Shown: piece after piece, positions 22,107 to 58,460 of the stretch
How the letters are laid out: each line of letters starts with the position of its first letter
How positions within the stretch are numbered: the stretch's first letter is position 1
Assembly (NCBI RefSeq): GCF_000016645.1
Contig: NC_009441.1
Coordinates: 2,480,001 to 2,544,000 of the forward strand
Origin: Flavobacterium johnsoniae UW101
GTDB lineage: Bacteria; Bacteroidota; Bacteroidia; Flavobacteriales; Flavobacteriaceae
Length of the DNA stretch: 64,000 bases
Reading direction: 5' to 3'
Position numbers and translations under genes: made by a program
The notes under the pieces: generated by a model
Seen by the model: the letters and a program-made list of their open reading frames with translations, nothing else
The model's database searches: none
Told to the model about the DNA's origin: nothing

Positions 22107-25100
22107 ATGAGCAAAAAAATAATTCATACCGTATTTGAAAGTGTAGTACAAAGCCAAGGCAGCAATATTGCTTTGCAAGGCGATCAAGGAAATATATCAT
22201 ATCAGGAGCTAAATCAATATTCAAATAAGCTGGCGCATCTTTTGCTTAATAATAACATATCTAGAAATGATATTGCAACTGTTTATTTTTCAGATCCGAG
22301 ATTACAGGTTATTTCATTACTTGGTGCTTTAAAGTCAGGAGCGATTTATCTGCCAATTGATAAAAAGTACAAACGCAATCATTGGGAAGAATTATATACC
22401 ACAATACTTCCAAAAGTATATATTACTGCTTCAGAAGATCTTCCGCTGTTACATCAATTCAGTGACTCGTTCGATTATTCTATTCCATTTATCATAACAT
22501 TATTAATTGATAGCCATGGAGCGTTAAAACATAAATTGTATGCCTATTCAAATAAAACATACGTAGATGTAACGAGCAAAACTCCTTTATCTGACGAAAA
22601 TCCAAATTTAGAATTTGGAGAGAATGATCCTAATTATATTTATTTCACTTCAGGTTCAACCGGCAATCCAAAAGCCGTTTTGGGCTGTCATAAAAGTCTG
22701 AGTCATTTTATACACTGGGAATCTAAAGAGCTGGGTATAAAAGAATCAGATAAAATAGGATTACTGCCTTCTTTTTCATTTGATGCTTCAATCCAGGCTG
22801 TTTTTATGGCGTTGATTAACGGAAGCACACTTTGTTTAATTAATTCTGAAACGAAAGAAGATATTATTCAACTGCAAAACTGGATAAGAAATTATAATAT
22901 TACGGTGCTTCACATGGTGCCAACCTTATTCAGGATTTTGAGTATTTATTCTGAAGGTAAAGACAAAAATCTTTCATTTCCTGATTTGAAATACATATTG
23001 CTGGCAGGAGAAAAATTATATAACAAAGATGTTGTAAACTGGAGAGAATGTCACGGAAACAACACAGAAATTATCAATTTCTACGGAACTACAGAAGCTA
23101 CAATTCTTAGCACATTTTATAGAATAGAACAAGAACTTCAAGGGGAATTATCTGATGTGTTTTGTGTTGGACAGCCAATTTCAAATACTGCCATATTAAT
23201 TTTAAATAAAGAAAATAAACTTTGCAAGATTGGCGAAGTAGGAAGTATTTACATAAAAACGCCATTTTTAACAAAAGGATATTACAAAAATCCGGAGCTG
23301 ACAGCTGATAAATTTATACAAAATCCGTTAACTGCTTCAACAGATATTATTTATAAAACAGGCGATTACGGAAAATATGATTCGCAGCGAAATACTATCG
23401 TTACAGGAAGAGAAGATGGTTTGGTAAAAATTAATGGGGTTCGTATTGATATTAATACAATCGAGCAGACTATCCTGAAATTAAAAGAGGTCGATATGGT
23501 AAAATGCCTTACCTATCAACAAGATTTACTAAATGTAATTTTGGTATGTTTTTATAAATCAGCAGCTGTTAATGAAAACGACATTAGAAAACACTGTCTT
23601 GAGTATTTATCTCAATATGAAATGCCTTCTCGTTTTATTGCCCTTGACGAAGTGCCAATTAATGCTAATGGTAAAATTGATCCGGTTGTCCTGAAAAAAA
23701 TAATCGACGATACATTAGCTGCAGATAATAATGAAACTGAAGATGAAACTCAAGCTGATGAAACAGAACAAAAACTAATTCAGATCTGGAAAGAAATATT
23801 AAATGTTGAAAAAATCAGACTAAAGGATAACTATTTGTTTTTAGGAGGAAACAGTATTAAACTTATTCAATTAAGACTTAGAATTCAGCAAAATTTTGAT
23901 GTAGAACTCAGCATTTATGATTTATTTACTAATCCGGTTTTAAAAGAACAGGCAAAACTAATCGCAGAATCGAAGAAATCTGTTTTCGAGGCTATTCCAC
24001 AAGTACAAGCTCAGGAATATTACAATTTATCTTCAACACAATACAGAATGTGGGTTGTTTCGCAAATAGAAAGCAGTTCTATTGCATATAATATGCCTAG
24101 TGCTTTCTTATTAAAGGGAGAAATTGACAAGTTAAAATTCAACGAAGCATTTAAAAATATTATTGAACGTCATGAAATCCTGCGAACTTTTTTCAAATCA
24201 AATCAGGATGGAGAAGTTCACCAATATATTACACCAGTAAACGAAGCCGCTTTTGAAATTACTGAAAAGGATCTGTCGCATTTTAATTCATTAGAAGAAA
24301 TTAAACCTTACCTAATCAGCTTAAACGCAGAACCATTTAATTTAGAAGAAGCACCACTTTTAAGAGCTTATTTAATTAAAGTAAATGAAAATCAGCATGT
24401 ATTCTATTTTACAATGCACCATATTATTGGCGACGGATGGTCATCATTAATTTTGCTTAAAGAAATAATCAGCACATATAATAGCTTATTAAATGGAAAC
24501 CAGACTGAATTAGAAGGGTTAAATATTCAGTTTAAAGACTATGTAGCATGGTCACAAAATGAAACCCATTTAGAGAAAAACAAAATTTCTGAAAACTATT
24601 GGTTAGATCAATTTTCTGGTGAATTGCCAGTATTAGAACTGCCAGGTTTTAAAAAACGCCCTTTAATAAAAACTAATAACGGGAACAAGATAGAACACGT
24701 TTATTCGGCAGAATTTACTAAAAAATTAAAGTCATTTTCAGAAACTCAAAATGTTACTTTATTCATGACTTTAATGGCAGGAATAAATACACTTTTGTCA
24801 AGATATTCAGGGCAGGATGATATTATTGTTGGAACGCCGGTTGCAGGAAGAGAGCACCCGGATTTAGAAAACCAGATTGGTCCTTATTTAAATACTGTTG
24901 CTATCCGGACAAAACTAGAAGAGCAGGAAACTTTTACTTCATTATTGTTAAAAGAAAAGCAGCTATTATTAAACTCATATCAGCATCAGGATTATCCTTT
25001 TGATGAATTGGTATGGAAATTAAATTTAGCTCAGGATAGCAGCCGTTCATTTTTATTTGATGTTTTAGTAGTATTACAAAACCAAAACCAGGTTGCTAAT

Positions 25101-28100
25101 TTAAATATCAGCGAAGAATTAAGCGGTATAAAAATAGAACCAGTTGATTTTGAAAGCAATTTTTCAAAGTTTGACCTGAACTTTATGTTCATCGAAGCAG
25201 AAAACTTAAACCTTTCAATTACTTATAATACAGATATCTACGATCAGTTTTTAATTAAAAGAATGTTTCAGCATTTCGAAATTCTTTTAAACCAGTTTAC
25301 TGCTAATCCTGATGTCGCTGTCAATAAAGTTGATTATCTGACAGAAAACGAAAAAACACAGTTATTGTTTGATTTCAATGATTTGATTGTAGAGTATCCA
25401 AAAGATAAAACTATTGTGGATTTGTTTGAGGAACAAGCTGCTAATAATCCTAATGTTACAGCAATTGCATTTGAGGAAAAAAATATTACTTACGCAGATT
25501 TATCTAAAGAAGTAAATGCATTAGCAGCACAGCTTTCTGAACAAAATGTTGAAAGAGGAGATAAAATTATAATTTGTTTTAACAGCCATATCGAAAAAGC
25601 AATAACAGGACTATTGGCTGTTTTAAAAATAGGAGCGGTATATGTTCCTGTAGATTCAGATTATCCATTAGAAAGAATCCGTTTTATTGTTGAGGATACC
25701 AAAGCAAAATTCGTTATTACAAACAGTTTAGATGCTGTTATTTTTAAAGATGTAAATGCAGATATAATTGCATTAGACGAACAAAAAGAATTTGAAAACA
25801 GTAAAGAACTTGTTTTTGAAAAAATCAACATTTCAGATAATGCTTATGTGATTTATACCTCAGGATCTACGGGAAATCCTAAAGGAGTAGTGGTAAGCCA
25901 TAGAAATATAAACGATTATGTTTTTGGATTAAAATCTAAAATTCAAATACAAAAGAATGACTCTTTTGCCTTAATGTCTACATTGGCTACAGATTTAGGA
26001 AACACAGTTCTTTTTGGTTCTTTACTGACTGGAAAAACGCTGCATTTGTTTTCGAAAGACAGTTTAAGAGATGTAAATTATATTCAGGAATATTATGAAA
26101 ATCATTCTATCGATTGTATTAAAATTGTGCCAAGTTATTGGAAATCATTAAACTTAAAAAGCCAGTCTCCTAACAAGATGATCATTTTTGGCGGAGAAGA
26201 GCTGACCGTTGATGTTGTAGAACAAATCAAAAACGAAAAGCCTGCTATTACCATTGTTAATCATTACGGACCTACCGAAACAACTATTGGGAAATTACTT
26301 CATGTTGTTGATCTGGAAAATTCATACGATCGTATTCCAATTGGAAGACCGTTCTCGAATACCAATGTATTTGTAGTAGATCAGAACTTTTTACTATGTC
26401 CTGTAGGTGTTGAAGGAGAATTGGTTATTGGGGGAGATGGTGTCTCAAATGGTTATTTGAATAATCTGCAATTAACAGAAACGCAATTTGTTAAAGATAC
26501 ACTTCTTCAAACAGAAGCGAAACTTTACAAAACCGGAGATAAAGTAAAACAATTTCCAAATGGTGATATCGAATACTTAGGACGATTTGACGATCAGGTA
26601 AAAATAAGAGGGCACAGGATTGAATTAGGAGAAATAAGCAGAAATCTTGCATTAATCGAAGGCATAAGCCAATCTATTGTAACAGTAGGCCAAAATAACG
26701 AGGAGAAGTTTTTAATTGCTTATTACGTTTCAGAAACACAGTTAGATAAAAAAGAAATTCAGTCCAGTCTATCTAAAGTACTGCCAGAATATATGGTGCC
26801 GTCGTATTATGTGAAGTTAGAAAGTCTGCCTTTAACATCGAATGGAAAAATCAACAGAAAAGCACTTCCTAAAATTTCTGAGAAAGACATTATCCGAAAA
26901 GAATATGTAGGGCCAAGAAATAAAACAGAAGAAAAATTAGTTCAAATCTGGCAGGAAATACTAAAAGTAGAAACAATTGGTGTAACTGATAATTTCTTTA
27001 ATCTTGGCGGACACAGTTTATTAGTTGTTAGAATTCTCAACTTAATCAAAAAAGAAATAGGCTTAAATATTTCTGTAAAAACATTTTTTGAAAATCCTAC
27101 TATTGATGCCTTATCAGGACAGTTAAAAGGAAAAGAAACAGAATCTTTCTTTATTGAAAAAATTGCTCCTGCTGATTCTTATCCGGTAACGGCTTCGCAA
27201 AAAAAGTTTTGGTTAATCAGCCAGTTTGAAGATGCTTCTTTAGCTTATAATATGCTGACTGTTTTTAGACTTGAAGGAAATTTAATTATTCCAAAATTCC
27301 AGGAATCGTTTATCCATCTTATCGAAAGACACGAAAGTTTAAGAACTTCTTTCAAACTTAATGAAGATGAAGAATTAAGACAGTTTATAGTGCCTGTTGA
27401 AGATCTGGATTTTAGTATCAATTATGTTGATCTCAGCTCTAATGAAACAACCGAAGAAAATTTAGCCGCTTATGTAGAAAAAGAAAATGCGATTCGATTT
27501 GATTTAGAAAAAGCACCTCTGGTTCGTGCTTCATTAATAAAAGCCGCTGAAGGTAAATTCGTATTCTTTATATCAATGCATCACATTATTGGAGACGGCT
27601 GGTCATCTGAATTATTAGTTGGAGAAGTTGTTTCTATCTACAATGCTCTTATTCAGGAAAGAGAAGTGAATTTACCAGAATTAAGAATTCAGTATAAAGA
27701 TTATGCAGCCTGGCTTAACAATGAAATTGAAAAAGAAGGATATAAAATTTCAGAGAAATATTGGTTAGATCAATTTTCAGGAAATCTTCCAACTATTGAA
27801 CTGCCTGGTTCTAAAATAAGACCTTCAGTAAAAACGTATAATGGAGACTATTTAGGTTATGAGTTTTCAGACAGTTTTTCGCAACAGTTAAGAGATTTCT
27901 CTACAGAGCAGAATGTATCATTGTTCATGGTATTAACAGCTGGAATCAACACGTTGTTAAGTAAATATACAGGAGAAAATGATATTGTTGTAGGAACTCC
28001 GGTTGCAGGAAGAGAACATCCTGATTTAGAAAATCAAATAGGACTTTATTTAAATACGCTGGCTCTAAGAACCAAAATAAATCAAAAAAACAGTTTCTTA

Positions 28101-29339
28101 GAATTATTGCAGCATGAAAAAGAAGTTATTCTGGGAGCTTACGAAAATCAGCTTTATCCGTTTGATGAATTGATTGATAAACTGCAGTTAAAAAGAGACA
28201 GAAGCAAAGCCTTATTATTTGATATACTGATTGTTTTACATAATCAGACAAAATTAAATATGGAAGATGATGAAAAACTGGTAGACCTTTACATTAAACC
28301 TTATGCCTCAACACGTAAAACTTCGCAGTTTGATTTGTCATTTAGATTTTCAGACAATGAGAGACTATATCTTGAAATAAATTACAATACAGATATCTAC
28401 GAAAAATCATTTATCGAAAAAGTATTTACACATTTTGAAGCACTGGTTTTTCAATTAATAACCAAACCAGAAATAAAATTAGAGCTTGTTGATTTTCTAT
28501 CTGAAGAAGATAAAAGAGAAATCGAAATGAGTGATTACTGGAAATCGGTTTTCAAAAATGAATTTTCAAATGTTGTATTTCCTTTTGAAAAACAAACTCT
28601 TGAAAAATTGGATAAGTCAGGAGCTCAGTTTCAGTTTTCTATTAATGAAGAATTAAAAGAAGGATTAGAAAAATTATCAGATTCAAACAGTGGTGATCTT
28701 TTTACTTCAGTATTGTTTTCTCTAAAAACGACAGTACGAAAATATATTGAAAATGATGAGGTTGCATTTCATATTTCAATTCCGGAAGAAGCACCTAATG
28801 AATGGCATAAATTGGATTTACCATTTGTTACCAATATCAGTAACGACGAATTACTGCTGGATGTTTACAACGATTTGAATTTTAGAATAACTGAGTTAAA
28901 GGAAAATCTTTTTACTGATTTTCAATTGGCAAAAAAAACGGCTGATTCTTTTTATAAACAAAATGAAGCTGCAGTTTTCAATATCAAATACAATTATCAT
29001 AAAAATCATGATTTTCAGGATTGGGTGCAGTTAGAATCAACAGAAGGAAACGAGTTTGAAAAAAGTATCATTTTTAAGGAAGAAGCTGCAATTACTCATA
29101 ATATGTCATTCGATTTTTATGAAAATGAATCTAGTGTTACCTGTGTACTAACTTATAATGCAGATAAATACGATAAAAATCAGGTTGTGTTATTTATAGA
29201 AAGATTCAAAATTGTAATGAACCAGATAGCGAATACCAAAGAACAATTCAGCAAGCTGACAACTCGTGAGATCAGTTTTAATTATCAAAAAGAAAAACAA
29301 GCGGGGAAAAGCAAAATGCTATTAGAAGAGAATTTCTAA
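22107..29339 (+). CDS. NRPS: A-PCP-C-A-PCP-C plus a C-lobe fragment
   Basis: 2410-residue NRPS that starts directly with A, with no C or dock. A1 loop (YFTSGSTGNPK) near 180, PCP1 GGNS serine near 583, C1 HHIIGDGWS near 771, A2 loop near 1251, PCP2 GGHS near 1637, C2 HHIIGDGWS near 1825. From about 2128 to the end lies a further stretch that resembles only the C-terminal lobe of a C domain and lacks any HHxxxDG. A1 pocket reads DAQHLAFILK (no match known to me). A2 reads DLNKIGHIGK, close to the Asp code. The C-less start could be an initiation module, or could receive the chain from the C domain that ends the 54015-58460 protein. The protein ends ...LEENF, with terminal Phe. It is followed at 57 bp by the aminotransferase gene. 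Confidence 0.94.
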   Translation: MSKKIIHTVFESVVQSQGSNIALQGDQGNISYQELNQYSNKLAHLLLNNNISRNDIATVYFSDPRLQVISLLGALKSGAIYLPIDKKYKRNHWEELYTTILPKVYITASEDLPLLHQFSDSFDYSIPFIITLLIDSHGALKHKLYAYSNKTYVDVTSKTPLSDENPNLEFGENDPNYIYFTSGSTGNPKAVLGCHKSLSHFIHWESKELGIKESDKIGLLPSFSFDASIQAVFMALINGSTLCLINSETKEDIIQLQNWIRNYNITVLHMVPTLFRILSIYSEGKDKNLSFPDLKYILLAGEKLYNKDVVNWRECHGNNTEIINFYGTTEATILSTFYRIEQELQGELSDVFCVGQPISNTAILILNKENKLCKIGEVGSIYIKTPFLTKGYYKNPELTADKFIQNPLTASTDIIYKTGDYGKYDSQRNTIVTGREDGLVKINGVRIDINTIEQTILKLKEVDMVKCLTYQQDLLNVILVCFYKSAAVNENDIRKHCLEYLSQYEMPSRFIALDEVPINANGKIDPVVLKKIIDDTLAADNNETEDETQADETEQKLIQIWKEILNVEKIRLKDNYLFLGGNSIKLIQLRLRIQQNFDVELSIYDLFTNPVLKEQAKLIAESKKSVFEAIPQVQAQEYYNLSSTQYRMWVVSQIESSSIAYNMPSAFLLKGEIDKLKFNEAFKNIIERHEILRTFFKSNQDGEVHQYITPVNEAAFEITEKDLSHFNSLEEIKPYLISLNAEPFNLEEAPLLRAYLIKVNENQHVFYFTMHHIIGDGWSSLILLKEIISTYNSLLNGNQTELEGLNIQFKDYVAWSQNETHLEKNKISENYWLDQFSGELPVLELPGFKKRPLIKTNNGNKIEHVYSAEFTKKLKSFSETQNVTLFMTLMAGINTLLSRYSGQDDIIVGTPVAGREHPDLENQIGPYLNTVAIRTKLEEQETFTSLLLKEKQLLLNSYQHQDYPFDELVWKLNLAQDSSRSFLFDVLVVLQNQNQVANLNISEELSGIKIEPVDFESNFSKFDLNFMFIEAENLNLSITYNTDIYDQFLIKRMFQHFEILLNQFTANPDVAVNKVDYLTENEKTQLLFDFNDLIVEYPKDKTIVDLFEEQAANNPNVTAIAFEEKNITYADLSKEVNALAAQLSEQNVERGDKIIICFNSHIEKAITGLLAVLKIGAVYVPVDSDYPLERIRFIVEDTKAKFVITNSLDAVIFKDVNADIIALDEQKEFENSKELVFEKINISDNAYVIYTSGSTGNPKGVVVSHRNINDYVFGLKSKIQIQKNDSFALMSTLATDLGNTVLFGSLLTGKTLHLFSKDSLRDVNYIQEYYENHSIDCIKIVPSYWKSLNLKSQSPNKMIIFGGEELTVDVVEQIKNEKPAITIVNHYGPTETTIGKLLHVVDLENSYDRIPIGRPFSNTNVFVVDQNFLLCPVGVEGELVIGGDGVSNGYLNNLQLTETQFVKDTLLQTEAKLYKTGDKVKQFPNGDIEYLGRFDDQVKIRGHRIELGEISRNLALIEGISQSIVTVGQNNEEKFLIAYYVSETQLDKKEIQSSLSKVLPEYMVPSYYVKLESLPLTSNGKINRKALPKISEKDIIRKEYVGPRNKTEEKLVQIWQEILKVETIGVTDNFFNLGGHSLLVVRILNLIKKEIGLNISVKTFFENPTIDALSGQLKGKETESFFIEKIAPADSYPVTASQKKFWLISQFEDASLAYNMLTVFRLEGNLIIPKFQESFIHLIERHESLRTSFKLNEDEELRQFIVPVEDLDFSINYVDLSSNETTEENLAAYVEKENAIRFDLEKAPLVRASLIKAAEGKFVFFISMHHIIGDGWSSELLVGEVVSIYNALIQEREVNLPELRIQYKDYAAWLNNEIEKEGYKISEKYWLDQFSGNLPTIELPGSKIRPSVKTYNGDYLGYEFSDSFSQQLRDFSTEQNVSLFMVLTAGINTLLSKYTGENDIVVGTPVAGREHPDLENQIGLYLNTLALRTKINQKNSFLELLQHEKEVILGAYENQLYPFDELIDKLQLKRDRSKALLFDILIVLHNQTKLNMEDDEKLVDLYIKPYASTRKTSQFDLSFRFSDNERLYLEINYNTDIYEKSFIEKVFTHFEALVFQLITKPEIKLELVDFLSEEDKREIEMSDYWKSVFKNEFSNVVFPFEKQTLEKLDKSGAQFQFSINEELKEGLEKLSDSNSGDLFTSVLFSLKTTVRKYIENDEVAFHISIPEEAPNEWHKLDLPFVTNISNDELLLDVYNDLNFRITELKENLFTDFQLAKKTADSFYKQNEAAVFNIKYNYHKNHDFQDWVQLESTEGNEFEKSIIFKEEAAITHNMSFDFYENESSVTCVLTYNADKYDKNQVVLFIERFKIVMNQIANTKEQFSKLTTREISFNYQKEKQAGKSKMLLEENF

Positions 29340-29395
29340 AATCAGTCCTTAAACTATTACAAACAGATATTAATTAACCATTAAATAAAAACAAT

Positions 29396-30775
29396 ATGAT
29401 TAAATCCTTAATACAATCTATGGCAGTATGCCCGGATATGAATAAAGTTTACCCTAAAATTGATTACGGTAAAGGTGTATATGTATATGACCAAAATGGT
29501 AAAAAATATTTAGATGCATCGTCAGGATCTTCGGCAGTTTCAAATATAGGACACGGGAGAACTGAAATTGCAGATGTAATTCACCAGCAGGTTTCTAAAA
29601 TATCTGTTTTGCCAACACACGCTTTTAACTCAGATGTAGTCGAAAGTTATTTAGATCGTCTTGTTTCTTTTGCGCCAGCAGGATTTAGCAAAGCGTGGAC
29701 AGTAATGAGCGGGACTGAAGCGGTAGAAAGTGCAGTTAAACTTGCTTTACAATTTCATCAGTTAAGAGGAGATTTCAACCGATACAAAGTAATTTCAAGA
29801 TGGAATACTTATCATGGAAACTCAGTTTTTATGCTGGATGTAGGAGGAATGAAAATCAGAAGAGAACTTTACAAGCAGTGGCTTAATAATTTTCCTCACA
29901 TTTCTCCGGCTTACAATTACAGAAGACCGGAAGAATTAAATGAAGATCAGTTTGTTCAAAGTTTACTGGCAGAGTTTGAAACTACAATTATTGAAGAAGG
30001 TGCAGAATCAATAGCTGCTTTTGTGGCAGAACCTGTAATCGCCTCAGCAATGGGTGCAGTACCGCCTCCGGCAAATTATTTTGCAGGAATCTCAAGAATA
30101 TGTAAAAAATACGGAATCCTTTTTATTACAGACGAAATCCTGACAGGTTTTGGAAGAACAGGTAAAAATTTTGGTATGGATAATTATGGTGTTGTACCAG
30201 ATATTATCGCAGCCGGAAAAGGAATGAGCGGCGGTTATTTTCCTTTATCAGCCGTAATTGCTTCAGCATATGTTACACAGCCTTTTATTGACACAAAAAC
30301 GCCATTTCTTGGCGGTTACACTTTTGCTTGTAATCCGGTTGGCTGTGCTGTTGGAAATAAAGTAATGGACATTTTAGAAAGAGAAGATGTTATAGGTAAC
30401 GCTAAGAGAATGGGAGCTTTGTTTCTGGAAAAACTAAAAGCATTATACGAGTTCGAAATCGTTGGTGATGTTCGCGGCGAAGGGCTGTTATGCGGTGTTG
30501 AAATTGTTCAAAACCAAAGCACAAAAGAGCCATTTCCGGTTTCTATGGGAATTTCAAAAATGCTGGGCGAAAAAGCAATTCAAAAAGGAGTTGTCCTGTA
30601 TCCAGGAAGAGGTTCTGTAGACGGGGTTCTGGGAGATCATATTCAAATTTCGCCGCCATTGGTAATTAACGAGGAGCAATTGGATGAAATTGTAGATGTT
30701 TTAAAAGAATGTTTAAAAGAAGTAATGTCTGAAATTAAAAAAACTACCCTGAATTATGAAAGTATTGAGTCTTAA
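29396..30775 (+). CDS. Class III PLP-dependent aminotransferase
   Basis: 459 residues, normal length for class III (omega) aminotransferases. Visible: cofactor-binding MSGTEAV near 104, WNTYHGN near 136, DEILTGFGRTG with Asp246, and Schiff-base Lys275 in AAGKGMSGG. The enzyme moves an amino group between an amine or amino acid and an oxo-acid or aldehyde. Its stop overlaps the start of the next NRPS by 20 bp, suggesting translational coupling. The first A domain of that NRPS has a pocket resembling diaminobutyrate codes, so the enzyme may make 2,4-diaminobutyrate from aspartate semialdehyde, as PvdH does in pyoverdine biosynthesis. The family is certain and the substrate is inference; the motifs look more like general omega-transaminases than like EctB. 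An alternative role is amination of a peptide aldehyde. Confidence 0.92.
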   Translation: MIKSLIQSMAVCPDMNKVYPKIDYGKGVYVYDQNGKKYLDASSGSSAVSNIGHGRTEIADVIHQQVSKISVLPTHAFNSDVVESYLDRLVSFAPAGFSKAWTVMSGTEAVESAVKLALQFHQLRGDFNRYKVISRWNTYHGNSVFMLDVGGMKIRRELYKQWLNNFPHISPAYNYRRPEELNEDQFVQSLLAEFETTIIEEGAESIAAFVAEPVIASAMGAVPPPANYFAGISRICKKYGILFITDEILTGFGRTGKNFGMDNYGVVPDIIAAGKGMSGGYFPLSAVIASAYVTQPFIDTKTPFLGGYTFACNPVGCAVGNKVMDILEREDVIGNAKRMGALFLEKLKALYEFEIVGDVRGEGLLCGVEIVQNQSTKEPFPVSMGISKMLGEKAIQKGVVLYPGRGSVDGVLGDHIQISPPLVINEEQLDEIVDVLKECLKEVMSEIKKTTLNYESIES

Positions 30776-48771: not shown

Positions 48772-51156
48772 ATGAAAAACACAATATTAATATTACTGAT
48801 CATCATACCTTTTTTCTCTTTTTCCCAGGTAAAAATAAACGGAACTATAAAAGATGAAACAGGCTTGTTATCTAATGTAAATGTTATTTTGTCTGATGAT
48901 AAAGATGTTACTGTAAAAGAAATCGTAACAGGGCAGGACGGTTCTTTTGAATTTGATGTTTCAAAAGGAATTTATAAAATAACAATTAGTTATCTGGACT
49001 ATGAATCTTTTTTTCAGGAGATTTCTGCAGAAAATGATATACAGCTTGAACCAATTATCTTAAAAAGAAAAGAGAATATTTTAGAAGAAGTGGTAATTAA
49101 AAACTCGGGCAGTCTGATAAAAAGAAAGCTGGATAAAACTATTTTTTCTGTTCAGAACAGCCCAATAGCAAGTGTAGGAAACGGGTTTGATGCCTTGAAA
49201 AGAGCGCCGGGTTTAATTCTTAAAAATGATGAAATTGTTATGCTGGGAAAAAGCAGTGTTAGAATCATGATAGAAGGAAAAATGGTGCAGCTGACAGGAG
49301 AAGAATTAAAAAACTTTTTAAAAACTATTTCTGCAACAGATATTAAAGAAATTGAAGTAATCACTAATCCTTCTTCAAAATATGAAGTAGAAGGAAACAG
49401 CGGAATAGTGAATATCATTTTTAAAAGATCTAAAAAAGATTCTTGGAGTGATAATATCTCTGCAACACATATTCAGGCTAAATATGGTAAACAGTCGCTT
49501 AATAATAATTTCAGCTACAGAAAAGATAAAATCAACTTGTCTTTTATTACAGGATATGATTATGGAGATACTTTTATAGACCAGCGTATGGAGATTTATT
49601 TTAAAGATTCACCTCTTAAATTAAAAACCCATCAAAAGCAAAATGAAAACAGCTTTTCGACAAGACTTTTATTTGATTATAATATGAGCAGTTATGATAA
49701 AGTTGGAATTCAATATTCTGGAGCATTTATAAAATCGAACCTGAAAGACAACATTCATACAGACATTTACAACAGCTCTAATGAAATTGATTACTACTTA
49801 AAAGCAAACGGAAATTTAGACGGAAAAAAAGACAACCATTCAGTTAATTTATTTTATGAAAGAAAACTGGATACACTAGGTAAAAAAATCATTTTTAATG
49901 TCGATTACCTTAATTACAACCGCGATGTACATAGTAATTTATTGTCCAATAAATACAACACAGATAATGAATTCATGAATGTTGACTTTGCAAACAATTC
50001 AAATGTTAATCAAAACATAGACAATTACAATGCAAAAATAGATGTAGAACATCCTTCAGCATTTGCTAATTTTCAATACGGTGCCAAAATAAGTTTTATA
50101 AAAACAAACAACGATAATATTTACTACGATCTTATTTCAGGAAGCCCGGTTTTAGATCCTGAACTTTCAGATGAGTTTAATTATAAAGAAAATATTCAGG
50201 CGGCCTATTTTACCGGAACCAAAAAAATTAACCAAAAAATAGACCTTCAAATTGGGTTAAGAGGAGAATACACGCAAACAACAGGAGAATCTGAAAAATT
50301 AGATCAGATTAATAAAAACGATTATTTTAAGCTTTTCCCAACCGTATTCTTTTCATATCAAAAAAATGAAGACAATGTTTTTAGTTTTAATTACGGACGA
50401 AGAATCCAGAGACCTAGTTATTCTTTACTAAATCCGTTGCGTTATTTTGTAAACAGCAATGTTTCATCACAGGGAAATCCAAATTTACAGCCAGCTTTTA
50501 TAGATAGTTTTGAATTTTCGCATACATACAAAGAAAACCTAAACACGAAGATTTCTTTTATGTCAAAAACAAATGCTTTTGGAGTTGTGTTTAAATTAGA
50601 TGAGAGTACTCAGGAACAAATAGTTACTCAGGAAAATTTTTATACAAATTATGGCTTTGCATTGACCGAAAATTATCAGCTGCCAATTTTTTCCTGGTGG
50701 AAAACAGATAACACTTTGTTCTTAAATTATTCTGTTTCTAATAAAACAAATAATGATGTAAATGCATCTTTAAAAAATGGTCTTGAATTTTATGGTTCAA
50801 TTAATAACATTTTTACGTTTGATAAAGATGGAAAAATCATAGGAGAACTTAATTTTTGGTACAATTCGCCTTATAAAGATAATTTATTCGAGTATTCACA
50901 GGCATCATCTCTGGATCTTGCATTTACTTATAAATCTATAATAAAAAACCTGAATCTTTCTATGGGATTGTTTGACATTTTTAACTCCAGTGTTAGAAAA
51001 ATGTCTTCAGAGATTAACGGTATAAATCAAAATTACATTTCCTATCCAAGCAATAGATATTTTAGAATTTCTTTAAACTATATGTTTGGAAATGATAAGA
51101 TTAAATCTCAAAAAAGAAATTTTGGAAATGAAGAAGAAAGAAAAAGAAGTAATTAA
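48772..51156 (+). CDS. Outer-membrane beta-barrel (TonB-dependent receptor-like) protein
   Basis: 794 residues. Residues 1-19 form a signal peptide (hydrophobic core ending FFSFSQ). Residues 20-95 look like a CarboxypepD_reg-like beta sandwich (INGTIKDETG, SYLDYESF), 100-215 like a receptor plug (LIKRKLDKTIF, DALKRAPG, IKEIEVITNPSSKYEVEGNSGIVNI), and the rest alternates in the way of an outer-membrane barrel of the OMP_b-brl family, ending in strands such as RYFRISLNYMF. A charged tail of about 20 residues follows the last strand, which is unusual because barrels mostly end on an aromatic residue. No clear TonB box is visible. Set between NRPS genes and the thioesterase (12 bp downstream), it may import or export the peptide, or bind it for self-protection. 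Confidence 0.9.
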   Translation: MKNTILILLIIIPFFSFSQVKINGTIKDETGLLSNVNVILSDDKDVTVKEIVTGQDGSFEFDVSKGIYKITISYLDYESFFQEISAENDIQLEPIILKRKENILEEVVIKNSGSLIKRKLDKTIFSVQNSPIASVGNGFDALKRAPGLILKNDEIVMLGKSSVRIMIEGKMVQLTGEELKNFLKTISATDIKEIEVITNPSSKYEVEGNSGIVNIIFKRSKKDSWSDNISATHIQAKYGKQSLNNNFSYRKDKINLSFITGYDYGDTFIDQRMEIYFKDSPLKLKTHQKQNENSFSTRLLFDYNMSSYDKVGIQYSGAFIKSNLKDNIHTDIYNSSNEIDYYLKANGNLDGKKDNHSVNLFYERKLDTLGKKIIFNVDYLNYNRDVHSNLLSNKYNTDNEFMNVDFANNSNVNQNIDNYNAKIDVEHPSAFANFQYGAKISFIKTNNDNIYYDLISGSPVLDPELSDEFNYKENIQAAYFTGTKKINQKIDLQIGLRGEYTQTTGESEKLDQINKNDYFKLFPTVFFSYQKNEDNVFSFNYGRRIQRPSYSLLNPLRYFVNSNVSSQGNPNLQPAFIDSFEFSHTYKENLNTKISFMSKTNAFGVVFKLDESTQEQIVTQENFYTNYGFALTENYQLPIFSWWKTDNTLFLNYSVSNKTNNDVNASLKNGLEFYGSINNIFTFDKDGKIIGELNFWYNSPYKDNLFEYSQASSLDLAFTYKSIIKNLNLSMGLFDIFNSSVRKMSSEINGINQNYISYPSNRYFRISLNYMFGNDKIKSQKRNFGNEEERKRSN

Positions 51157-51168: not shown

Positions 51169-51888
51169 ATGAAAAACCAGTTATTTTTTTTGCATTTCGC
51201 AGGAGGCAGTTCATTTTCGTTTGATTTTCTTAAAAACAAACTTAATAATAGTATTATGTCTATTGCTCTCGAATTACCGGGAAGAGGTAAAAGAATGGAT
51301 GAAAAACTTATCAAACTAAAAGAAGAAGCAATAGATGATTACTGTCGTCAGATTATCAAATTACGAAACGGAAATCCTTTTGTAATATACGGACATAGTA
51401 TGGGCGCCACATTAGGACTAAGCGTAGTGGCAAGGTTAGAAAAAATGGGACATTTTCCTGAACAATTAGTTGTTTCAGGAAATGCAGGCCCGGGAGTACG
51501 AAAGAAAAAAAACTTTATGACGTATTTATTAGGCGATTCTGAATTTAAAGAAGAATTAAGAGAACTTGGAGGCGTTCCGGAAGAAGTCCTGAAAAATAAC
51601 GAATTATACGATTTTTTTGCCCCTATAATCCGGGCTGATTTTGAATGTCTGGAAAAAGATCCCTTTTTAGAAAAAGGCATAGTAATTAATACTCCAATTT
51701 ATGCCCTGATGGGAACCGAAGAAGAAACATGCAGTGAAATCGAGAATTGGAAAATATTTACAGATTCGGATTTTAGATACAATGTTTTAAAAGGAAACCA
51801 CTTTTTTATATATCCCCATTCAGATCAAATAGCAATGATATTAAACAAGTCTTTTTCGGCTAAAAAAAGGGATTTATTGACAATTTAA
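51169..51888 (+). CDS. Type II thioesterase (NRPS editing)
   Basis: 239 residues, usual size for stand-alone type II thioesterases of NRPS clusters (GrsT/SrfAD family, alpha/beta hydrolase fold). Visible: LHFAGGSSFSF near the start, LPGRGKR near 37, nucleophile Ser77 in GHSMG, LMGTEEE near 180 and catalytic His211 in KGNHFF. Such enzymes clear wrongly loaded or stalled acyl groups from carrier domains in the cytosol. With no thioesterase domain inside any NRPS of this window, it is the only visible thioesterase for both assembly lines. Start ATG follows 12 bp after the receptor stop. Confidence 0.93.
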   Translation: MKNQLFFLHFAGGSSFSFDFLKNKLNNSIMSIALELPGRGKRMDEKLIKLKEEAIDDYCRQIIKLRNGNPFVIYGHSMGATLGLSVVARLEKMGHFPEQLVVSGNAGPGVRKKKNFMTYLLGDSEFKEELRELGGVPEEVLKNNELYDFFAPIIRADFECLEKDPFLEKGIVINTPIYALMGTEEETCSEIENWKIFTDSDFRYNVLKGNHFFIYPHSDQIAMILNKSFSAKKRDLLTI

Positions 51889-52300: not shown

Positions 52301-53926
52301 ATGTTAAAAATAAAAAAACGAGAAATTTTTTATCTCCTTTTATACGCTGTGCCAAACACCTTATTAACATTCTCGATTGTATATATAATCAATAATGTAA
52401 TGGCAGGAAACAAAGCTTTCCTTACTGACTATATGGGAATTGTGTTTGTGTCTATTCTTGTATATACGTATTTATTAAATGTTATTTTTCAAAAAAAGCT
52501 CAATAAGTTTTCATTTAATATGCTTTATGAAAATGAAAAGAAAATTTTCAAACAAATATTAAGCGTTCCATTGCTAAAACTGGAACAATACGGATCGCAG
52601 AGATTTTATACGGTTGTCGAAGATTTAAGAACCTTTTCTTTACTGCCTTATACTGTTACACATACAATTAATTCGCTATTAATGCTTATCCTTTGTTTAA
52701 TCTATATGTTTACACTTTCGCTGGTATCTGCCTTAATAGTAGTAAGCTTGATTGTAATGGTAGGAGCCTGCTATTTTATTGTAATGAATGCAATGTCTAA
52801 AAGAGTAAATCAATTAAGAGAATACAATGATGGATATTACAAATCAGTAGATGATGTTATACGAGGTTTTAAGGAGTTAAAAGTTAGTTTTTTAAGAAGA
52901 GATAACTTACTGAACAAATTTATTATTCCAAACAGAGATGAAGCAATGAATCTTGATTTTAGTATAAATTATGTTTTTCTTTCTATTAACCTAATAAGCC
53001 AATACGGATTGTATTTTGTTGTATCTGTAATTTTATTTGTACTGCCGGCACTTGATCTCCTTTCAAGAGAAGATGTTATTTCGTATGTCGTAATTATTTT
53101 ATTTATCTCTGGGCCTATAAACAATATCATCAACTTACAGCAGCTTTATACTCGATTTTTTGTTGCCAATACAAGAATCTCGAATTTTATAAAAGATTTT
53201 GAAGTTATTGAAGAAACGGCACCTAAAAATGAAACCCTGAATGATTTTCAATCCCTGAATTTTAGCGATGTTGAATTTACTTATCCAAGCAAAGATGAAG
53301 ATTCATCTTTTCAGTTAGGACCAATAAGCTTAAACATTCAAAAAGGCGAAACCATCTTTATAGTGGGTGGAAATGGGTCTGGAAAAAGCACCTTTATAAA
53401 CCTGCTTACTGGACTTTACAAACCTACAGAAGGAAAAATTATAATAGATGACAAAAGCGACAGGGGAGAAAATATACAAGACCTTATTGCAGCCGTATTT
53501 ACAGATAATCATTTGTTTTCTAAAAATTACGACGATTATACCTTAGAGAATAATAAAGATTATGTCGAATTATTAAAAACAATGGAGATGGATAGAATCA
53601 TTACAGATGATAAAGATTCGTCTATAAGAAGAAAATTCTCTAAAGGTCAAAGTAAACGAATGTCGTTGATTTTTAATTTGTTAGAGAAAAAACCCGTAAT
53701 GGTTTTAGACGAATGGGCCGCAGATCAGGATCCGCATTTTAGAAAATATTTCTATGAATTTCTTTTGCCAAAATTTAAAGAAGAAGGCAAAACGATTATT
53801 GCAGTTACACATGATGATGCCTATTTTCATTTGGCAGACAGAATCATAAAATTTGATTATGGCAATATTGTCAAAGAAATTAAAACTACCAGCAAAGAAG
53901 AATTGGCCGAGAATATCTGGGCCTGA
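52301..53926 (+). CDS. Cyclic-peptide-type ABC exporter (SyrD/PvdE/YojI family)
   Basis: 541 residues; a half-transporter with about six membrane spans in the first 290 residues and an ATPase domain after that. Walker A GGNGSGKST at 356-364, signature FSKGQ at 446-450, Walker B with DEWAADQDP at 470-478, and a THDD switch near 502. The DEWAADQDP block is a hallmark of the exporter group that carries peptide natural products and siderophore precursors across the inner membrane (SyrD, PvdE, YojI). It should work as a homodimer and move the NRPS product, or an acylated precursor, into the periplasm, where the 58497 hydrolase could act. It lies 11 bp after the small unknown gene. Confidence 0.95.
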   Translation: MLKIKKREIFYLLLYAVPNTLLTFSIVYIINNVMAGNKAFLTDYMGIVFVSILVYTYLLNVIFQKKLNKFSFNMLYENEKKIFKQILSVPLLKLEQYGSQRFYTVVEDLRTFSLLPYTVTHTINSLLMLILCLIYMFTLSLVSALIVVSLIVMVGACYFIVMNAMSKRVNQLREYNDGYYKSVDDVIRGFKELKVSFLRRDNLLNKFIIPNRDEAMNLDFSINYVFLSINLISQYGLYFVVSVILFVLPALDLLSREDVISYVVIILFISGPINNIINLQQLYTRFFVANTRISNFIKDFEVIEETAPKNETLNDFQSLNFSDVEFTYPSKDEDSSFQLGPISLNIQKGETIFIVGGNGSGKSTFINLLTGLYKPTEGKIIIDDKSDRGENIQDLIAAVFTDNHLFSKNYDDYTLENNKDYVELLKTMEMDRIITDDKDSSIRRKFSKGQSKRMSLIFNLLEKKPVMVLDEWAADQDPHFRKYFYEFLLPKFKEEGKTIIAVTHDDAYFHLADRIIKFDYGNIVKEIKTTSKEELAENIWA

Positions 53927-54014: not shown

Positions 54015-57000
54015 ATGAAACTTACACTTCCTCAACAAGATGTTTATTTTGAGCAGCTTATGTATCCTGATGATCCTATTTATAACATAGGGGCAAAGAT
54101 TTCCATTGATGGAGATGTTTCCTATGAAATATTAAATCAGGCATACATCGAACTAATTAACCAGCATGATTCTTACAGAAGCATTATACAAAAATCTGGA
54201 GACCAGGTAACAATTCAAACTGTTGAAAATCATGATTCGGTTTTAGAATATCTGGATTTTTCCTGTGATGAAAATCCAGATTTAGAAGCAAACCAATTTA
54301 TGCAGGAAAAATTTCAGGTATCTGTTAAATTAGATACCAAAGAATTATTGCACAAATTTATTTTGATAAAAGTAAACGAAAAGCAGCACTATTTATTTTC
54401 TGTATATCATCATATTATTACAGATGGATGGGGAACATCTCTAATGTTTCAAAGATTAGTGAAAAATTACAATGAAATTTCACTTTCAGGAAATGTAACC
54501 TCTGTTTATCCTTACTCTTATCAAGATTTTATTTTAGATGATGAAGCCTATTTGTTATCTGAAGATTATGAAAATGACAAAAACTATTGGAAAAACAGAT
54601 TTAAGCAGCTTCCGGAACAATTACTCGAAGTAAAAGAAAATACTGGTAAACCTAATCAAAGCAAAAGAAAAGAAATTATTATAAAACGTAACGTTTATAA
54701 TCAATTAGAGCAGAGAAGTAAAGACTTAGGAGCGACAACTTTTCATGTTATTCTTGGTGTTTTATACCTCTATTTTGGAAAAAAACATCAAAATACAGAT
54801 TTTACAATTGGGCTTCCAGTCCTGAACAGAGGAAAATCGATATTCAAAAAAACCGTTGGATTATTTATGGGAGTGTCCCCGTTAAGAGTTCAATTTGGGT
54901 TGGAAGATAATTTTGAAGAACTTATTAAAAATATCAAACAACAGCTTCGTCAGGATTATCGTCATCAAAGATTTCCTTTAGGAAGATTAGTAAAAGAGCT
55001 GGGTTTATTTCAGGAAAATGAAAGGCTTTTTAACATTACATTGTCTTATGAAAAACAAAATTATGCAGATCACTTTGTTAATACCATTACAAAGGTAATC
55101 CCGCTTTCTCATCATTCTGAGCGAGTAGCTCTGGCAATCTATATTCGCGAGTTTGATGCATTAGAAGATGTAAAGATAGATTTTGATTACAATGTCAATT
55201 ATTTTAGTCAGGAAGATATTTCCCGAGTTGGATCTCATTTTGAAACATTACTTTCTGAAATAATAAAAAGTACAGAAAAACCGCTTTCAGAATATGAATA
55301 TATTACGGCAATTGAGAAAAAACAATTACTGGAAGAATTCAATGCAACAGAATTTAATTGTGATTCAGAAACAACATTGCTGGATTCTTTTAAAAAGCAG
55401 GCAGCAAAAACTCCAAATAAAATTGCATTAACAGATCAGGAAAAAACATTTACATACCAGGAGCTGGATTTGTTTTCGGATAGGGTTGCATTCTTTTTGC
55501 AAAAAAAGATTAAAAAAGATGAGCCGGTACCTGTTGCAGTTCTTATGAATCGTTCTGCAGATCTCGTGGCGACTTTACTAGGTGTTTTGAAATCAGGGAA
55601 TGCTTATATTCCTTTAGATCCTTCATTTCCAAAAGATCGTTTAGAATATATTATTGATCACAGCGGTGTAGAACAGGTAATTTCTACAGAAATTTTAAAT
55701 CAAAGTATAGGTTTAAACAGGCAGATTATAGACATTGAATTATTGCCAGATGAGGTTTTAGATCAAAAACAAAATGCATTAAAAACTGTGCCTTCTGCAA
55801 ATACGGCGTATATTATATACACTTCAGGATCAACAGGAAATCCTAAAGGAGTTGCAATTGGTCACAAAGCCCTGCTTAATTTTTTAATCAGCATACAGCA
55901 GCAGCCAAAAATTGAAGAACAAGATTATTTGTTTTCAGTAACAACACAGTCTTTTGATATTTCGATTCTTGAATTTTTTGCTCCATTAATCAGCGGTGCT
56001 GCGCTTTATATTGCAAGTGAAGAACTTTTAGATGATCCTTTTGCAGTTATAACAGCTTTAGAAGACTTAAAACCAACAATAATTCAGGCAACACCTAGTT
56101 TCTTTCAAATGTTATATAATGCCGGATGGAAAGGAAATAAATCGCTGAAAATTTTATGCGGAGGAGATTTGCTAAGCGAAACATTGTCTGAAAAATTAAG
56201 ACAGACCAACGGAGCATTATGGAATATGTACGGACCTACAGAAACAACAATTTGGTCAAGCTGTAAAAATATTATGCAGGCCAATGAAGCTTCAAATATT
56301 GGTAAACCTATCAATAATACCCAGCTATATATTCTTGATTCATACATGAAGCTGCTTCCTATCGGATCTGCCGGAGCTATTTATATTGGCGGAGATGGTC
56401 TGGCACAGGGATACTTTAAAAATGAAGAATTGACAAATGAAAAATTCGTTCAAAGTCCGTTTGACCAAAATCAAAAAATATACAATACAGGGGATCTGGG
56501 ACGATGGAACGAAAATGGAGAAATAGAATTCATGGGGCGCAATGATAATCAGGTAAAAATAAGAGGTTATCGAATTGAACTTGGTGAAATTGAAGCCAGA
56601 TTAAATCAGATAAAAAATGTAAAAGCATCTGTTGTTGTTGCCCAAAAATCCAAAGAACAGGAATCTTTACTTATTGCTTATCTAATTTTTGAAAATGAAG
56701 AATTTAACCCTTCGTTTATTGTCAATATTTTAAGAGAAGAATTACCGGAATACATGATTCCGCATGCCATAATGCAGGTAGATGAATTTCCGCTGACTCC
56801 AAATAAAAAAATAGACAGAAAAGAGCTTTCATTGCGCAAAATAACAATTGCCAAATCTGAAGTTTCAAACGAAATGCCTGTAACAGCAATTGAGAAAAGC
56901 CTTTACAAATTCTATACAGAAGTATTAGAAATAAAAGCAGAAATTAGTATTACAGATAATTTCTTTGCACTGGGAGGACATTCCTTAAATGCAGTAAAAC

Positions 57001-58460
57001 TAATAAATCTAATTAATGAACAACTGCATTATAGAATTACCCTAAAAGATGTGTTTGATTATCCTACAGTTCAAAAACTTGCTAAATATCTTGATAATAA
57101 AGAAGTTGTAAAAGATGTAAATATCCAGACTAGTAATGAAGAGCCCTATTATACAATAACTCCCTCTCAATACAATATTTGGCTGGCATCGCAGCAACAA
57201 GAAAAATCGACAGCTTACAACATGTCGGCAGTATTTAAAATTCAAGGAGAACTGAATAAAGCCCTATTCGATCAGATATTTCATGAAATCCAAAAGAAAC
57301 ATGAAGTATTGAGAACAAATTTTATTGCGATAGGAGGGATTCCGCACCAGATAATTACAAGTAAAAAAGAAGCGAATATCTTGATTAATGAATTCTTTTA
57401 TGATGAAAAACACATAACCGATGCGCTGAATGAGTATATAAATACAGAATTTGACCTGGAGAAAGAACCGCTTTTTAGAGTTTCATTTTTTCACGGAAGT
57501 GACGGGCAGTCTTACCTTGTTTTTTCGACACATCATATTATAATGGATGGCTGGTCTTTGGAGATATTAATTGAAGATTTTGTCAGCAAATACAAAGCCA
57601 GAGAAAAACAAGTTATACAACAAGAATCAGAATTAAAATTTCAGTTTAAAGATTATGCAGTTTGGCATGAAAAAGAGCTGAAAAGTAATCACGAAAAAAA
57701 CTTTGATTTCTGGAAAAACTATCTCAAAGGATATTCATGGAATAAAAATGTGCCTTTTGATTATGAAAATATCGAAGAAAAAGATTTAAAAGGCAGCCAT
57801 GATTTTAGGTATGAATCAGTTGAAAATGCACAATTAAAAAGTTTTGTTCATCAGTATAATGTATCACTTCACACTTTTTTGGTTAATGCATTTAATGTCT
57901 TGATTTACAAAATGTATGAGAAAGATGATTTTTGTGTAGGAACAGTTAATTCCGGAAGAACAAATTCTGAATTGCACAATCAATTAGGAATGTATGTAAA
58001 AACATTACCATTAAGAACACAAATAAATTCAAACCAAACTGTTCTCGAAATCATGAATCAAATGCATCAAAATTTATTATTGATTGATGAGCATCAGGAT
58101 ATACCAGCAGTTATACAGTCAAAATTAAGGTTTGATACTTTGTTAGTACTCCAAAATCCATCTTTTGATTATAATAACATTTACATAAATAAAGACCTTA
58201 ATCTGCAGATAGCGCCAATAAAAGAAGCCTACAGCCGATTACCATTGTTGATCACTTTTACTGTAAACAGCAAAAAATTGACTGGAAATATAAGTTACTC
58301 GGCCTCAAGTTACAGCGCTGAAACAATTGAATTAATCACATTAAAATACGAAAAAATAATAGCTGAAATTATTAAAAACCCTAACGTTCCTGTAAGCTCA
58401 TTAGATATCGAATTATCTTTTGAAAAAGAAAGGAAAATTGAGATTGGTTTAAATTTCTAA
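54015..58460 (+). CDS. NRPS: C-A-PCP-C (Gly)
   Basis: 1481 residues, no docking domain. First C domain starts at residue 1 (LTLPQQDVYFEQLMYPDDPIYN style) with HHIITDGWG near 131; this opening resembles starter C domains that attach an acyl group, but I cannot prove it. A loop near 602, PCP GGHS near 990, second C HHIIMDGWS near 1173. The A pocket reads DILQLGMIWK, one change from the Gly code DILQLGLIWK, so Gly is likely. The C-terminal C domain has no A after it. The 22107 protein begins with a C-less A-PCP, so the two may form a split module, putting this gene first in the second line although it is encoded after it. Ends ...IGLNF, with terminal Phe. Confidence 0.94.
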   Translation: MKLTLPQQDVYFEQLMYPDDPIYNIGAKISIDGDVSYEILNQAYIELINQHDSYRSIIQKSGDQVTIQTVENHDSVLEYLDFSCDENPDLEANQFMQEKFQVSVKLDTKELLHKFILIKVNEKQHYLFSVYHHIITDGWGTSLMFQRLVKNYNEISLSGNVTSVYPYSYQDFILDDEAYLLSEDYENDKNYWKNRFKQLPEQLLEVKENTGKPNQSKRKEIIIKRNVYNQLEQRSKDLGATTFHVILGVLYLYFGKKHQNTDFTIGLPVLNRGKSIFKKTVGLFMGVSPLRVQFGLEDNFEELIKNIKQQLRQDYRHQRFPLGRLVKELGLFQENERLFNITLSYEKQNYADHFVNTITKVIPLSHHSERVALAIYIREFDALEDVKIDFDYNVNYFSQEDISRVGSHFETLLSEIIKSTEKPLSEYEYITAIEKKQLLEEFNATEFNCDSETTLLDSFKKQAAKTPNKIALTDQEKTFTYQELDLFSDRVAFFLQKKIKKDEPVPVAVLMNRSADLVATLLGVLKSGNAYIPLDPSFPKDRLEYIIDHSGVEQVISTEILNQSIGLNRQIIDIELLPDEVLDQKQNALKTVPSANTAYIIYTSGSTGNPKGVAIGHKALLNFLISIQQQPKIEEQDYLFSVTTQSFDISILEFFAPLISGAALYIASEELLDDPFAVITALEDLKPTIIQATPSFFQMLYNAGWKGNKSLKILCGGDLLSETLSEKLRQTNGALWNMYGPTETTIWSSCKNIMQANEASNIGKPINNTQLYILDSYMKLLPIGSAGAIYIGGDGLAQGYFKNEELTNEKFVQSPFDQNQKIYNTGDLGRWNENGEIEFMGRNDNQVKIRGYRIELGEIEARLNQIKNVKASVVVAQKSKEQESLLIAYLIFENEEFNPSFIVNILREELPEYMIPHAIMQVDEFPLTPNKKIDRKELSLRKITIAKSEVSNEMPVTAIEKSLYKFYTEVLEIKAEISITDNFFALGGHSLNAVKLINLINEQLHYRITLKDVFDYPTVQKLAKYLDNKEVVKDVNIQTSNEEPYYTITPSQYNIWLASQQQEKSTAYNMSAVFKIQGELNKALFDQIFHEIQKKHEVLRTNFIAIGGIPHQIITSKKEANILINEFFYDEKHITDALNEYINTEFDLEKEPLFRVSFFHGSDGQSYLVFSTHHIIMDGWSLEILIEDFVSKYKAREKQVIQQESELKFQFKDYAVWHEKELKSNHEKNFDFWKNYLKGYSWNKNVPFDYENIEEKDLKGSHDFRYESVENAQLKSFVHQYNVSLHTFLVNAFNVLIYKMYEKDDFCVGTVNSGRTNSELHNQLGMYVKTLPLRTQINSNQTVLEIMNQMHQNLLLIDEHQDIPAVIQSKLRFDTLLVLQNPSFDYNNIYINKDLNLQIAPIKEAYSRLPLLITFTVNSKKLTGNISYSASSYSAETIELITLKYEKIIAEIIKNPNVPVSSLDIELSFEKERKIEIGLNF

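Follow-up and report, generated by a model that had tools for sequence, protein, structure and literature searches.

Prodrug systems of non-ribosomal peptide synthetases (NRPSs), as excerpts of the published accounts describe them, combine a dedicated first NRPS module with an exporter and a peptidase that has a periplasmic domain and C-terminal membrane helices (PMC9889268, PMC10811503, PMC9854587). For didemnin (DidA/DidK), the first NRPS is described in part of one such account as laying down an N-acyl-amino acid leader that is cut during export (PMC10811503). COM, PAX and beta-hairpin are the docking classes named for NRPSs in an excerpt of PMC9113145, and the chitinopeptins of Chitinophaga are presented in part of PMC9248904 as cyclic lipo-tetradeca- or pentadecapeptides with hydroxylated residues. 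For Flavobacterium johnsoniae, 28 cluster regions have been predicted, of which an excerpt of that report gives only flexirubin as previously described (PMC9586298). Here we analyzed an NRPS cluster in a 64,000-nucleotide stretch of the F. johnsoniae UW101 genome (the window; assembly GCF_000016645.1, contig NC_009441.1, positions 2,480,001 to 2,544,000 of the forward strand). To our knowledge, no product of the cluster is known.

We consider it likely that, as far as protein 42625, the synthetases form one non-collinear assembly line started by the last-encoded synthetase, 54015 (proteins are named by the first base of their gene, and W1 is the protein that enters the window at base 1). 54015 would provide a glycine, perhaps acylated, and pass it to W1 (Ala, Leu, X1), from where the chain would travel over 5498 (Lys-like, Ala) and 11921 (Ala) to 22107 (X2, Asp), 30756 (diaminobutyrate (Dab), D-Thr, Leu) and 42625 (D-X3). 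The product would most likely be a peptide of ~13–14 residues. Judging from domains and tails, two hand-off systems would connect the proteins. Tails with a short linear motif (SLiM) behind a peptidyl carrier protein (PCP) domain would dock onto TubC_N beta-hairpins (W1/5498/11921 and 30756/42625). At split C|A junctions, the condensation (C) domain that ends one protein would serve the adenylation (A) domain that starts the next, and some of these junctions would be marked by half-C domains (h22 with h30; hW1 after 54015).

Domain architecture of the synthetases

Domains were called with Pfam and a separate domain scan, and specificity codes were read at nine positions in a motif-anchored alignment. 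The domain orders given here come from the domain scan and, for 42625 and 54015 and (half-C domains aside) 22107 and 30756, from Pfam as well. Residues in brackets are those that we take the codes to specify according to code tables, which assign none to the third A domain of W1 (X1), the first of 22107 (X2) and that of 42625 (X3). E denotes epimerization and bHD beta-hairpin docking domains.

1..5424 (+), W1: half-C(hW1)-A(Ala)-PCP-C-A(Leu)-PCP-C-A(X1, DAKHDGDIVK)-PCP, SLiM-like tail EEDQDEIIL; 2,894 aa, beginning 3,261 bases upstream of the window (L009:16740); proposed second protein of the line
5498..11914 (+): bHD(TubC_N)-C-A(Lys-like, DTESIGTVCK)-PCP-C-A(Ala)-PCP, SLiM-like tail DSTAKILI
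11921..16627 (+): bHD-C-A(Ala)-PCP-C, tail ISEISEEF, the same in F. shii; the terminal C would feed the bare A of 22107
17451..21686 (+): A(Asp, DLTKVGHVGK)-PCP-E-thioester reductase with GATGFLG and YEKSK motifs
22107..29339 (+): A(X2, DAQHLAFILK)-PCP-C-A(Asp, DLTKIGHIGK)-PCP-C-half-C(h22), tail LLEENF
30756..40943 (+): half-C(h30)-A(Dab, DIWEINTDDK)-PCP-C-A(Thr, DFWNIGMVHK)-PCP-E-C(D-type)-A(Leu, DAWYLGNVVK)-PCP, SLiM-like tail ISDKVVI
42625..48603 (+): bHD(TubC_N)-C-A(X3, DAYIIGAVLK)-PCP-E-divergent terminal C (HHSLLDQ), tail QNSEINTF
54015..58460 (+): proposed loading synthetase C-A(Gly, DILQLGMIWK)-PCP-C, tail EIGLNF

N-terminal TubC_N domains preceding a C domain scored 44.9 bits in 5498 and 27.6 bits in 42625 (cut-off 26); 11921 was just under, with 25.3 bits. 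The half-C sites are located at the end of 22107 (h22) and at the starts of 30756 (h30) and W1 (hW1). Profile–profile comparison (hhalign) placed them on columns 215–436, 198–450 and 190–454 of the C domain, respectively. Since these alignments fall past the HHxxxDG motif, the half-C domains represent the C-terminal lobe only and the motif is absent. Four proteins end in a C domain (54015, 11921, 22107 and 42625) and four start without one (W1, 17451, 22107 and 30756). All 18 Condensation-family matches of the genome lie inside this one cluster, which makes it unlikely that another part of the genome encodes a partner C domain. A Pfam scan of the window proteins revealed no thioesterase (TE) domain within the synthetases of the cluster.

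Phylogenies were computed for 65 C domains (quick search with support from the Shimodaira–Hasegawa-like approximate likelihood-ratio test, SH-aLRT, only) and for 97 A domains. As an internal check, the clade that holds the second C domain of 30756 comprised seven members, all of which follow an E domain. Between UW101 and F. shii, respectively, the codes read Asp and Asn in the second A domain of 22107, Thr and Asn as well as Leu and Gly in 30756, and X3 and Val-like in 42625. Motif departures were seen in two places: the E domain of 30756 reads QHLVVDGVSW, with the first His replaced by Gln (42625 has HHLVVDGVSW), and the active-site motif in the first C domain of 42625, HHIISDEW, carries Glu where Gly is usual. 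The original prediction for this DNA, made from sequence alone, had given domain orders for 54015, 22107, 30756 and 42625 that both scans reproduced, but had overlooked the three half-C domains. Its residues Gly, Asp, Dab, D-Thr and Leu agree with the codes read here.

The proposed loading protein and glycine cassette

Directly upstream and downstream of 54015, two further genes were considered together with it:

52301..53926 (+): ATP-binding cassette (ABC) exporter, half transporter; neighbor of 54015-type genes
58497..60434 (+): signal peptide, alpha/beta-hydrolase domain (GVSYG) and four C-terminal transmembrane helices

We searched a genus sample of 398 Flavobacterium genomes (relatives are labelled G008, G052, etc.) for homologues of the hydrolase 58497, scoring three candidates per genome, and found them in 30 genomes. 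In every one of the 30, a 54015-type protein is encoded on the strand of the hydrolase, at a gap of less than 700 bp in 27 and of 3.6, 3.6 and 9.6 kb in the others. The gap measures 652–697 bp in 22 of the 30 and 36–46 bp in UW101, F. shii, G056, G235 and G288. A 52301-like exporter was located within 1.5 kb in 29, and the thirtieth has a partial match where the extracted stretch ends. When the W1 half-C was used as a profile, with seven candidates scored per genome, 31 genomes matched, namely all 30 with the hydrolase (ten of which supplied the profile and match by construction) and G079 with a weak partial match, the only one among the 368 genomes without the hydrolase. In 20 of the 30, no more than 100 kb of one contig separates hydrolase cassette and W1 half-C; the other ten are draft genomes with the two on different contigs.

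Furthermore, the order 54015-type gene, hydrolase, W1-type gene was observed in G008, G052, G201 and G217 (G008, G201 and G217 have identical tails and look closely related). G288 (L140, L158, L159) appears to show the same order, but was left out because two clusters stand in tandem there; the second has a broken hydrolase. In G057, the line starts with the W1 homologue, and the 54015 homologue is the sole C-ended protein and the W1 homologue the sole half-C start that were parsed; the last protein of that line carries a TE-like domain (29 bits to a thioesterase profile). These observations support the reading, drawn from sequence, that 54015 would act first and feed W1. Gene order and module order are then not collinear, as the last-encoded synthetase pairs with W1.

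Several points weigh against this assignment. 54015 and the half-C might occur together because they belong to a single cluster type, and not because they dock directly. G057 also has a frame of 303 aa in which a PCP and part of an A domain were recognized. In G114 (L126, L127), a second hydrolase copy is followed by a half-C start, with no 54015-type gene in the stretch taken, and in G238 the half-C was matched weakly (E 1.3e-15), in a frame that is broken.

The 54015-type gene of G238 is split over three frames, which leaves 29 full-length homologues. All 29 carry the glycine code DILQ[LM]GMIWK, as does the second copy in G288, although this invariance may partly be due to common descent. 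Elsewhere in the line, by contrast, codes differ even from UW101 to F. shii. The domain scan detected no E domain in 54015. 58497 has an N-terminal signal peptide, a GVSYG hydrolase domain and helices at residues 513–642 in the model, so that an exported catalytic domain is followed by transmembrane helices, as in ClbP. Across 31 homologous frames, simple hydropathy gave at least four C-terminal helices in 29 (of the remaining two, one is truncated by a contig end); 22, with 58497 itself among them, have a hydrophobic N-terminal stretch that exceeds the threshold. The nucleophilic Ser is kept in all 31; GxSxG as such is lacking in five, where A-x-S-Y-G or S-x-S-Y-G (four) and GVSYA (one) occur instead.

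In analogy to ClbP, 54015, the exporter and 58497 may plausibly be read as an N-acyl-glycine leader cassette that follows the same prodrug logic, without being a member of that family. 54015 would lay down the N-acyl-glycine leader, and the peptide would be inert until the membrane-anchored 58497 cuts the exported chain. Tentatively, and with somewhat less than even confidence, we extend this analogy to an as yet undescribed cassette shared among Flavobacterium and probably other Bacteroidota, in which a stand-alone C-A(Gly)-PCP-C protein loads the N-acyl-glycine cap, a dedicated half-C docking element takes the cap over into the line, an ABC exporter moves the chain and a membrane-anchored alpha/beta-hydrolase uncaps it outside the cytoplasm. 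If so, many different peptides would share a single leader and a single peptidase. An explanation that we rate somewhat below an even chance is that 58497 is an unrelated periplasmic peptidase or a self-resistance hydrolase and that Gly stays in the product. The fold speaks for this, being nearest to Hip1, TnmK1/K2 and prolyl aminopeptidases and thus to a broad family that includes tripeptidyl aminopeptidase-like enzymes, as do the varied source names of the homologues (alpha/beta-hydrolase, TAP-like, tripeptidyl aminopeptidase, carboxylesterase). The co-occurrence of 58497 with 54015-type genes, the invariant Gly code, C-terminal helices of the kind that an enzyme coupled to export should have and the conserved nucleophile argue for the leader peptidase, and the nearest folds are counted on that side as well.

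Proposed junctions and release of the chain

Profiles of h30 and h22 were built from UW101, F. shii and G052 and searched against 31 genomes. h30 was found in these three only, and true h22 matches (331–378 bits) in the same three; some h22 match at E <= 1e-8 occurred in 29 of the 31, the next best, with 67 bits, corresponding to ordinary C lobes. Because of the origin of the profiles, the searches add only the absence of both half-C domains from the other 28 genomes. The tails of the proteins with true h22 matches share LEENF. Together, this supports a matched half-C pair through which 22107 would pass its chain to 30756. The subsequent hand-over from 30756 to 42625 is supported by F. shii, where the two counterparts are fused into one protein of 5,313 aa.

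Bookkeeping of C ends against bare starts leaves the terminal C domain of 42625 and the start of 17451 as the sole unmatched pair. As the most likely end, held at about even odds, the divergent C domain of 42625 would hand the chain to 17451, which would add D-Asp and release the peptide reductively as an aldehyde, perhaps reduced further to an alcohol by the adjoining short-chain dehydrogenase/reductase (SDR):

16593..17432 (+): short-chain dehydrogenase, NCBIfam SDR_TniO_fam above cut-off, adjoining the reductase protein in UW101 and F. shii; a possible aldehyde reductase

With this end step, the four C-ended proteins, the four C-less starts and the sole reductase would all be used, giving 14 modules. 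In 17451, the E domain lies between PCP and reductase; the latter matches NAD_binding_4 with 163 bits and TIGR01746 with 191.9 bits, under the cut-off of 213.35. A variant with 14 modules, in which 17451 sits in the middle of the line and is joined by reductive amination, was dropped for lack of support.

Alternatively, there could be a single line of 13 modules in which the terminal C of 42625 performs the release through hydrolysis, cyclization or capture by a small amine, with 17451 and the SDR supplying a D-Asp-derived aldehyde or amino alcohol in trans. We consider this unlikely, but a number of observations point in its direction. The divergent C stands at the protein end in all ten strong 42625 homologues (nine further genomes with weak matches were left out), eight of which belong to clusters without a reductase protein in the stretches parsed. 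The second His and the Asp of its motif, taken as catalytic, are kept in all ten, HH in nine, and Gly after Asp in none. Such terminal C domains of relatives, having no visible downstream partner, may release chains by themselves, which weakens the step to 17451. Proteins of the 17451 type form a family of A-PCP-E-reductase proteins of ~1,400 residues across Bacteroidota (P0121–P0160; Pedobacter, Chitinophaga, Niastella) and look free-standing by length, since 38 of the 40 listed homologues measure 1,300–1,445 aa in a search that admits only lengths of 0.55–1.75 times the query. Within the genus, whole-protein matches to 17451 at E <= 1e-20 (two candidates scored per genome) occurred in 86 of the 398 genomes, at full length only in UW101 and F. 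shii. A search for its reductase in 199 relatives returned only the match in UW101 itself, and a search in 114 genomes of the class returned this match and one weak one.

Against release by 42625 alone stands its docking-like tail. Its final eight residues are all conserved in F. shii (8/8), against 25 identities in the 60 columns before them; if columns are taken as independent, the chance of such identity is (25/60)^8, ~0.001. The other C-ended proteins show 7/8, 8/8 and 7/8 identical tail residues and the end of 17451 4/8. Such conservation is less telling in that W1, which does not end in C, also reaches 7/8, and that the SLiM tail of 5498 reaches 5/8. The sequence QNS[EQ]INTF also ends the close homologues P0162 and P0163, but was not found at the end of the more distant P0164 or of eight other terminal-C proteins. 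Moreover, it is hard to see what purpose epimerization and reduction of a single amino acid would serve in this cluster.

Upstream of these steps, the single line depends on the junction between 11921 and 22107. The terminal C domain of 11921 falls, together with that of F. shii, into a clade (SH-aLRT 99) with four others, two from G235 and one each from G114 and G244; each of these four directly precedes a protein starting with a bare A domain coded DARHLALLVK. The first A domain of 22107 groups with the two DARHLALLVK domains of G235 (support 100) in the A-domain tree, which left out those of G114 and G244. The trees support the reading that the terminal C of 11921 would feed the bare A of 22107. 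They turned round our first reading from gene order, in which 11921 was followed by 17451.

On that earlier order rests a two-line explanation, with an 8-mer made by 54015, W1, 5498, 11921 and 17451 and released as an aldehyde, and a 6-mer running from the bare A of 22107 to the terminal C of 42625. It fits the gene order 11921, SDR, 17451, and 11921 could still pass its chain to 17451, which lies between 11921 and 22107 and starts with a bare A. Likewise, in G052 and G075 the position of 17451 is taken by a module with an Asn code and an E domain, which comes after a C-ended protein. The inner forks of the 11921 clade are weak (82 and 84), and two of its four supporting domains come from the near relatives G114 and G244; these points, too, count against a single line. 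We nonetheless hold two lines to be improbable, as the C- and A-domain trees both pair 11921 with 22107 and all four counterparts of the first A domain of 22107 outside F. shii directly follow a C-ended protein. In addition, the Asn-with-E modules of G052 and G075 are preceded by C domains of a separate clade, and 17451 does not group with these modules by either its A or its E domain (the E branch being long).

The line of the original prediction, 54015 to 22107, 30756 and 42625 beside a first line of W1, 5498, 11921 and 17451, satisfies domain arithmetic alone (54015 ends in C, 22107 starts with A) and is very improbable, because 54015-type proteins occur with the W1 half-C start in 30 of 30 genomes while the 22107-type A start was seen only in UW101, F. 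shii, G235, G114 and G244 among the stretches parsed, G057 yielded no full-length bare-A start, and the C domain of 11921, not that of 54015, clusters with those preceding 22107-type A domains. Every C-less A domain can indeed be matched to a C-ended protein, four to four, as it had counted, yet the first pair that it chose, 54015 with 22107, was abandoned after the 398-genome test. That 54015 acts first is supported, but for W1, and the disagreement with gene order stands as well, as do the steps from 22107 to 30756 (half-C pair in the same three of 31 genomes) and on to 42625. The proteins of the supposed first line lie between 54015 and 22107, and therefore no second, complete line is supported. 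The short product (acyl)-Gly-X-Asp-Dab-Thr-Leu-X gives way to one predicted peptide of ~13–14 residues, so that a mass search for the former would fail.

Accessory genes and comparison with known systems

The remaining features of the window are as follows:

29396..30775 (+): class-III aminotransferase; homologues in the G052, G235 and G174 clusters
40964..42571 (+): CmlA-type diiron beta-hydroxylase
48772..51156 (+): outer-membrane beta-barrel protein, a frequent neighbor in relatives
51169..51888 (+): type II thioesterase (editing)
60496..61863 (+): weak ATP-grasp-like protein (PF14397, 14.5 bits, below cut-off)
61980-63023 (-): PF00144 beta-lactamase-family protein, beyond the last gene of the cluster
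63534-63621 (-): tRNA-Ser, beyond the last gene of the cluster

The aminotransferase adjoins the Dab-coded module and probably serves Dab supply. A homologue of 60496 was present in five of the 30 cassette genomes, the same five that yielded an A code DAKHDGDI[VI]K, the W1-type codes of the other 25 having been read in part; 60496 probably makes or attaches the unusual third residue of W1. The second C domain of W1, which precedes X1, forms a long separate branch with its F. shii and G235 counterparts (SH-aLRT 100), which fits an unusual acceptor. The CmlA-type hydroxylase gene adjoins that of the terminal-C protein in UW101, G075, G056, G158, G373 and G395 and is placed elsewhere in the G052 and G235 clusters; it was not found in the parsed stretch of F. 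shii, where the 30756 and 42625 counterparts are fused. The TniO name of the SDR family gave no lead in the literature, and the listings from literature searches showed neither a described product nor half-C docking.

Among described systems, those with ClbP or XcnG (colibactin, xenocoumacin, amicoumacin, zwittermicin) come close in combining a first module, an exporter and a membrane-helix peptidase. In contrast to their D-Asn, for which Asn is activated and epimerized, the module here is coded for Gly and has no E domain. Their peptidase has an S12 beta-lactamase fold with three helices, whereas 58497 is an alpha/beta-hydrolase with four and not an S12 (SxxK) membrane peptidase; a PF00144 protein is encoded nearby, at 61980(-). 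Moreover, the exporter here is of the ABC type, and leader cleavage is a prediction. Didemnin resembles the proposed scheme in the N-acyl-amino acid leader from a first NRPS, but DidK is, in the excerpt of that account, a CAAX-hydrolase homologue with an N-acyl-polyglutamine leader and a proposed ester cut, in place of an alpha/beta-hydrolase and Gly. The chitinopeptins are likewise hydroxylated Bacteroidota lipopeptides of 14–15 residues; however, the residues of chitinopeptin A, as far as the excerpted report gives them, misfit the codes here, and chitinopeptins are cyclic depsipeptides, whereas no TE was seen within these synthetases.

17451 matches both the myxochelin- and the aureusimine-type NCBIfam models under their cut-offs and shares the C-terminal thioester reductase domain. 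It differs in being a separate A-PCP-E-reductase protein with a bare-A start, to which the chain must pass in trans. With respect to docking, the TubC_N domains on 5498, 11921 and 42625 and the short PCP tails on W1, 5498 and 30756 resemble the SLiM/beta-hairpin class, while the split C|A junctions with half-C partners fall outside it. They suggest reading rules for synthetases with such junctions, namely which half-C or tail pairs with which start, and the survey points to a glycine cassette conserved in 30 of 398 sampled Flavobacterium genomes. Overall, the system is a variant of known NRPS logic; what merits further attention in it are the half-C junctions and the conserved glycine cassette.

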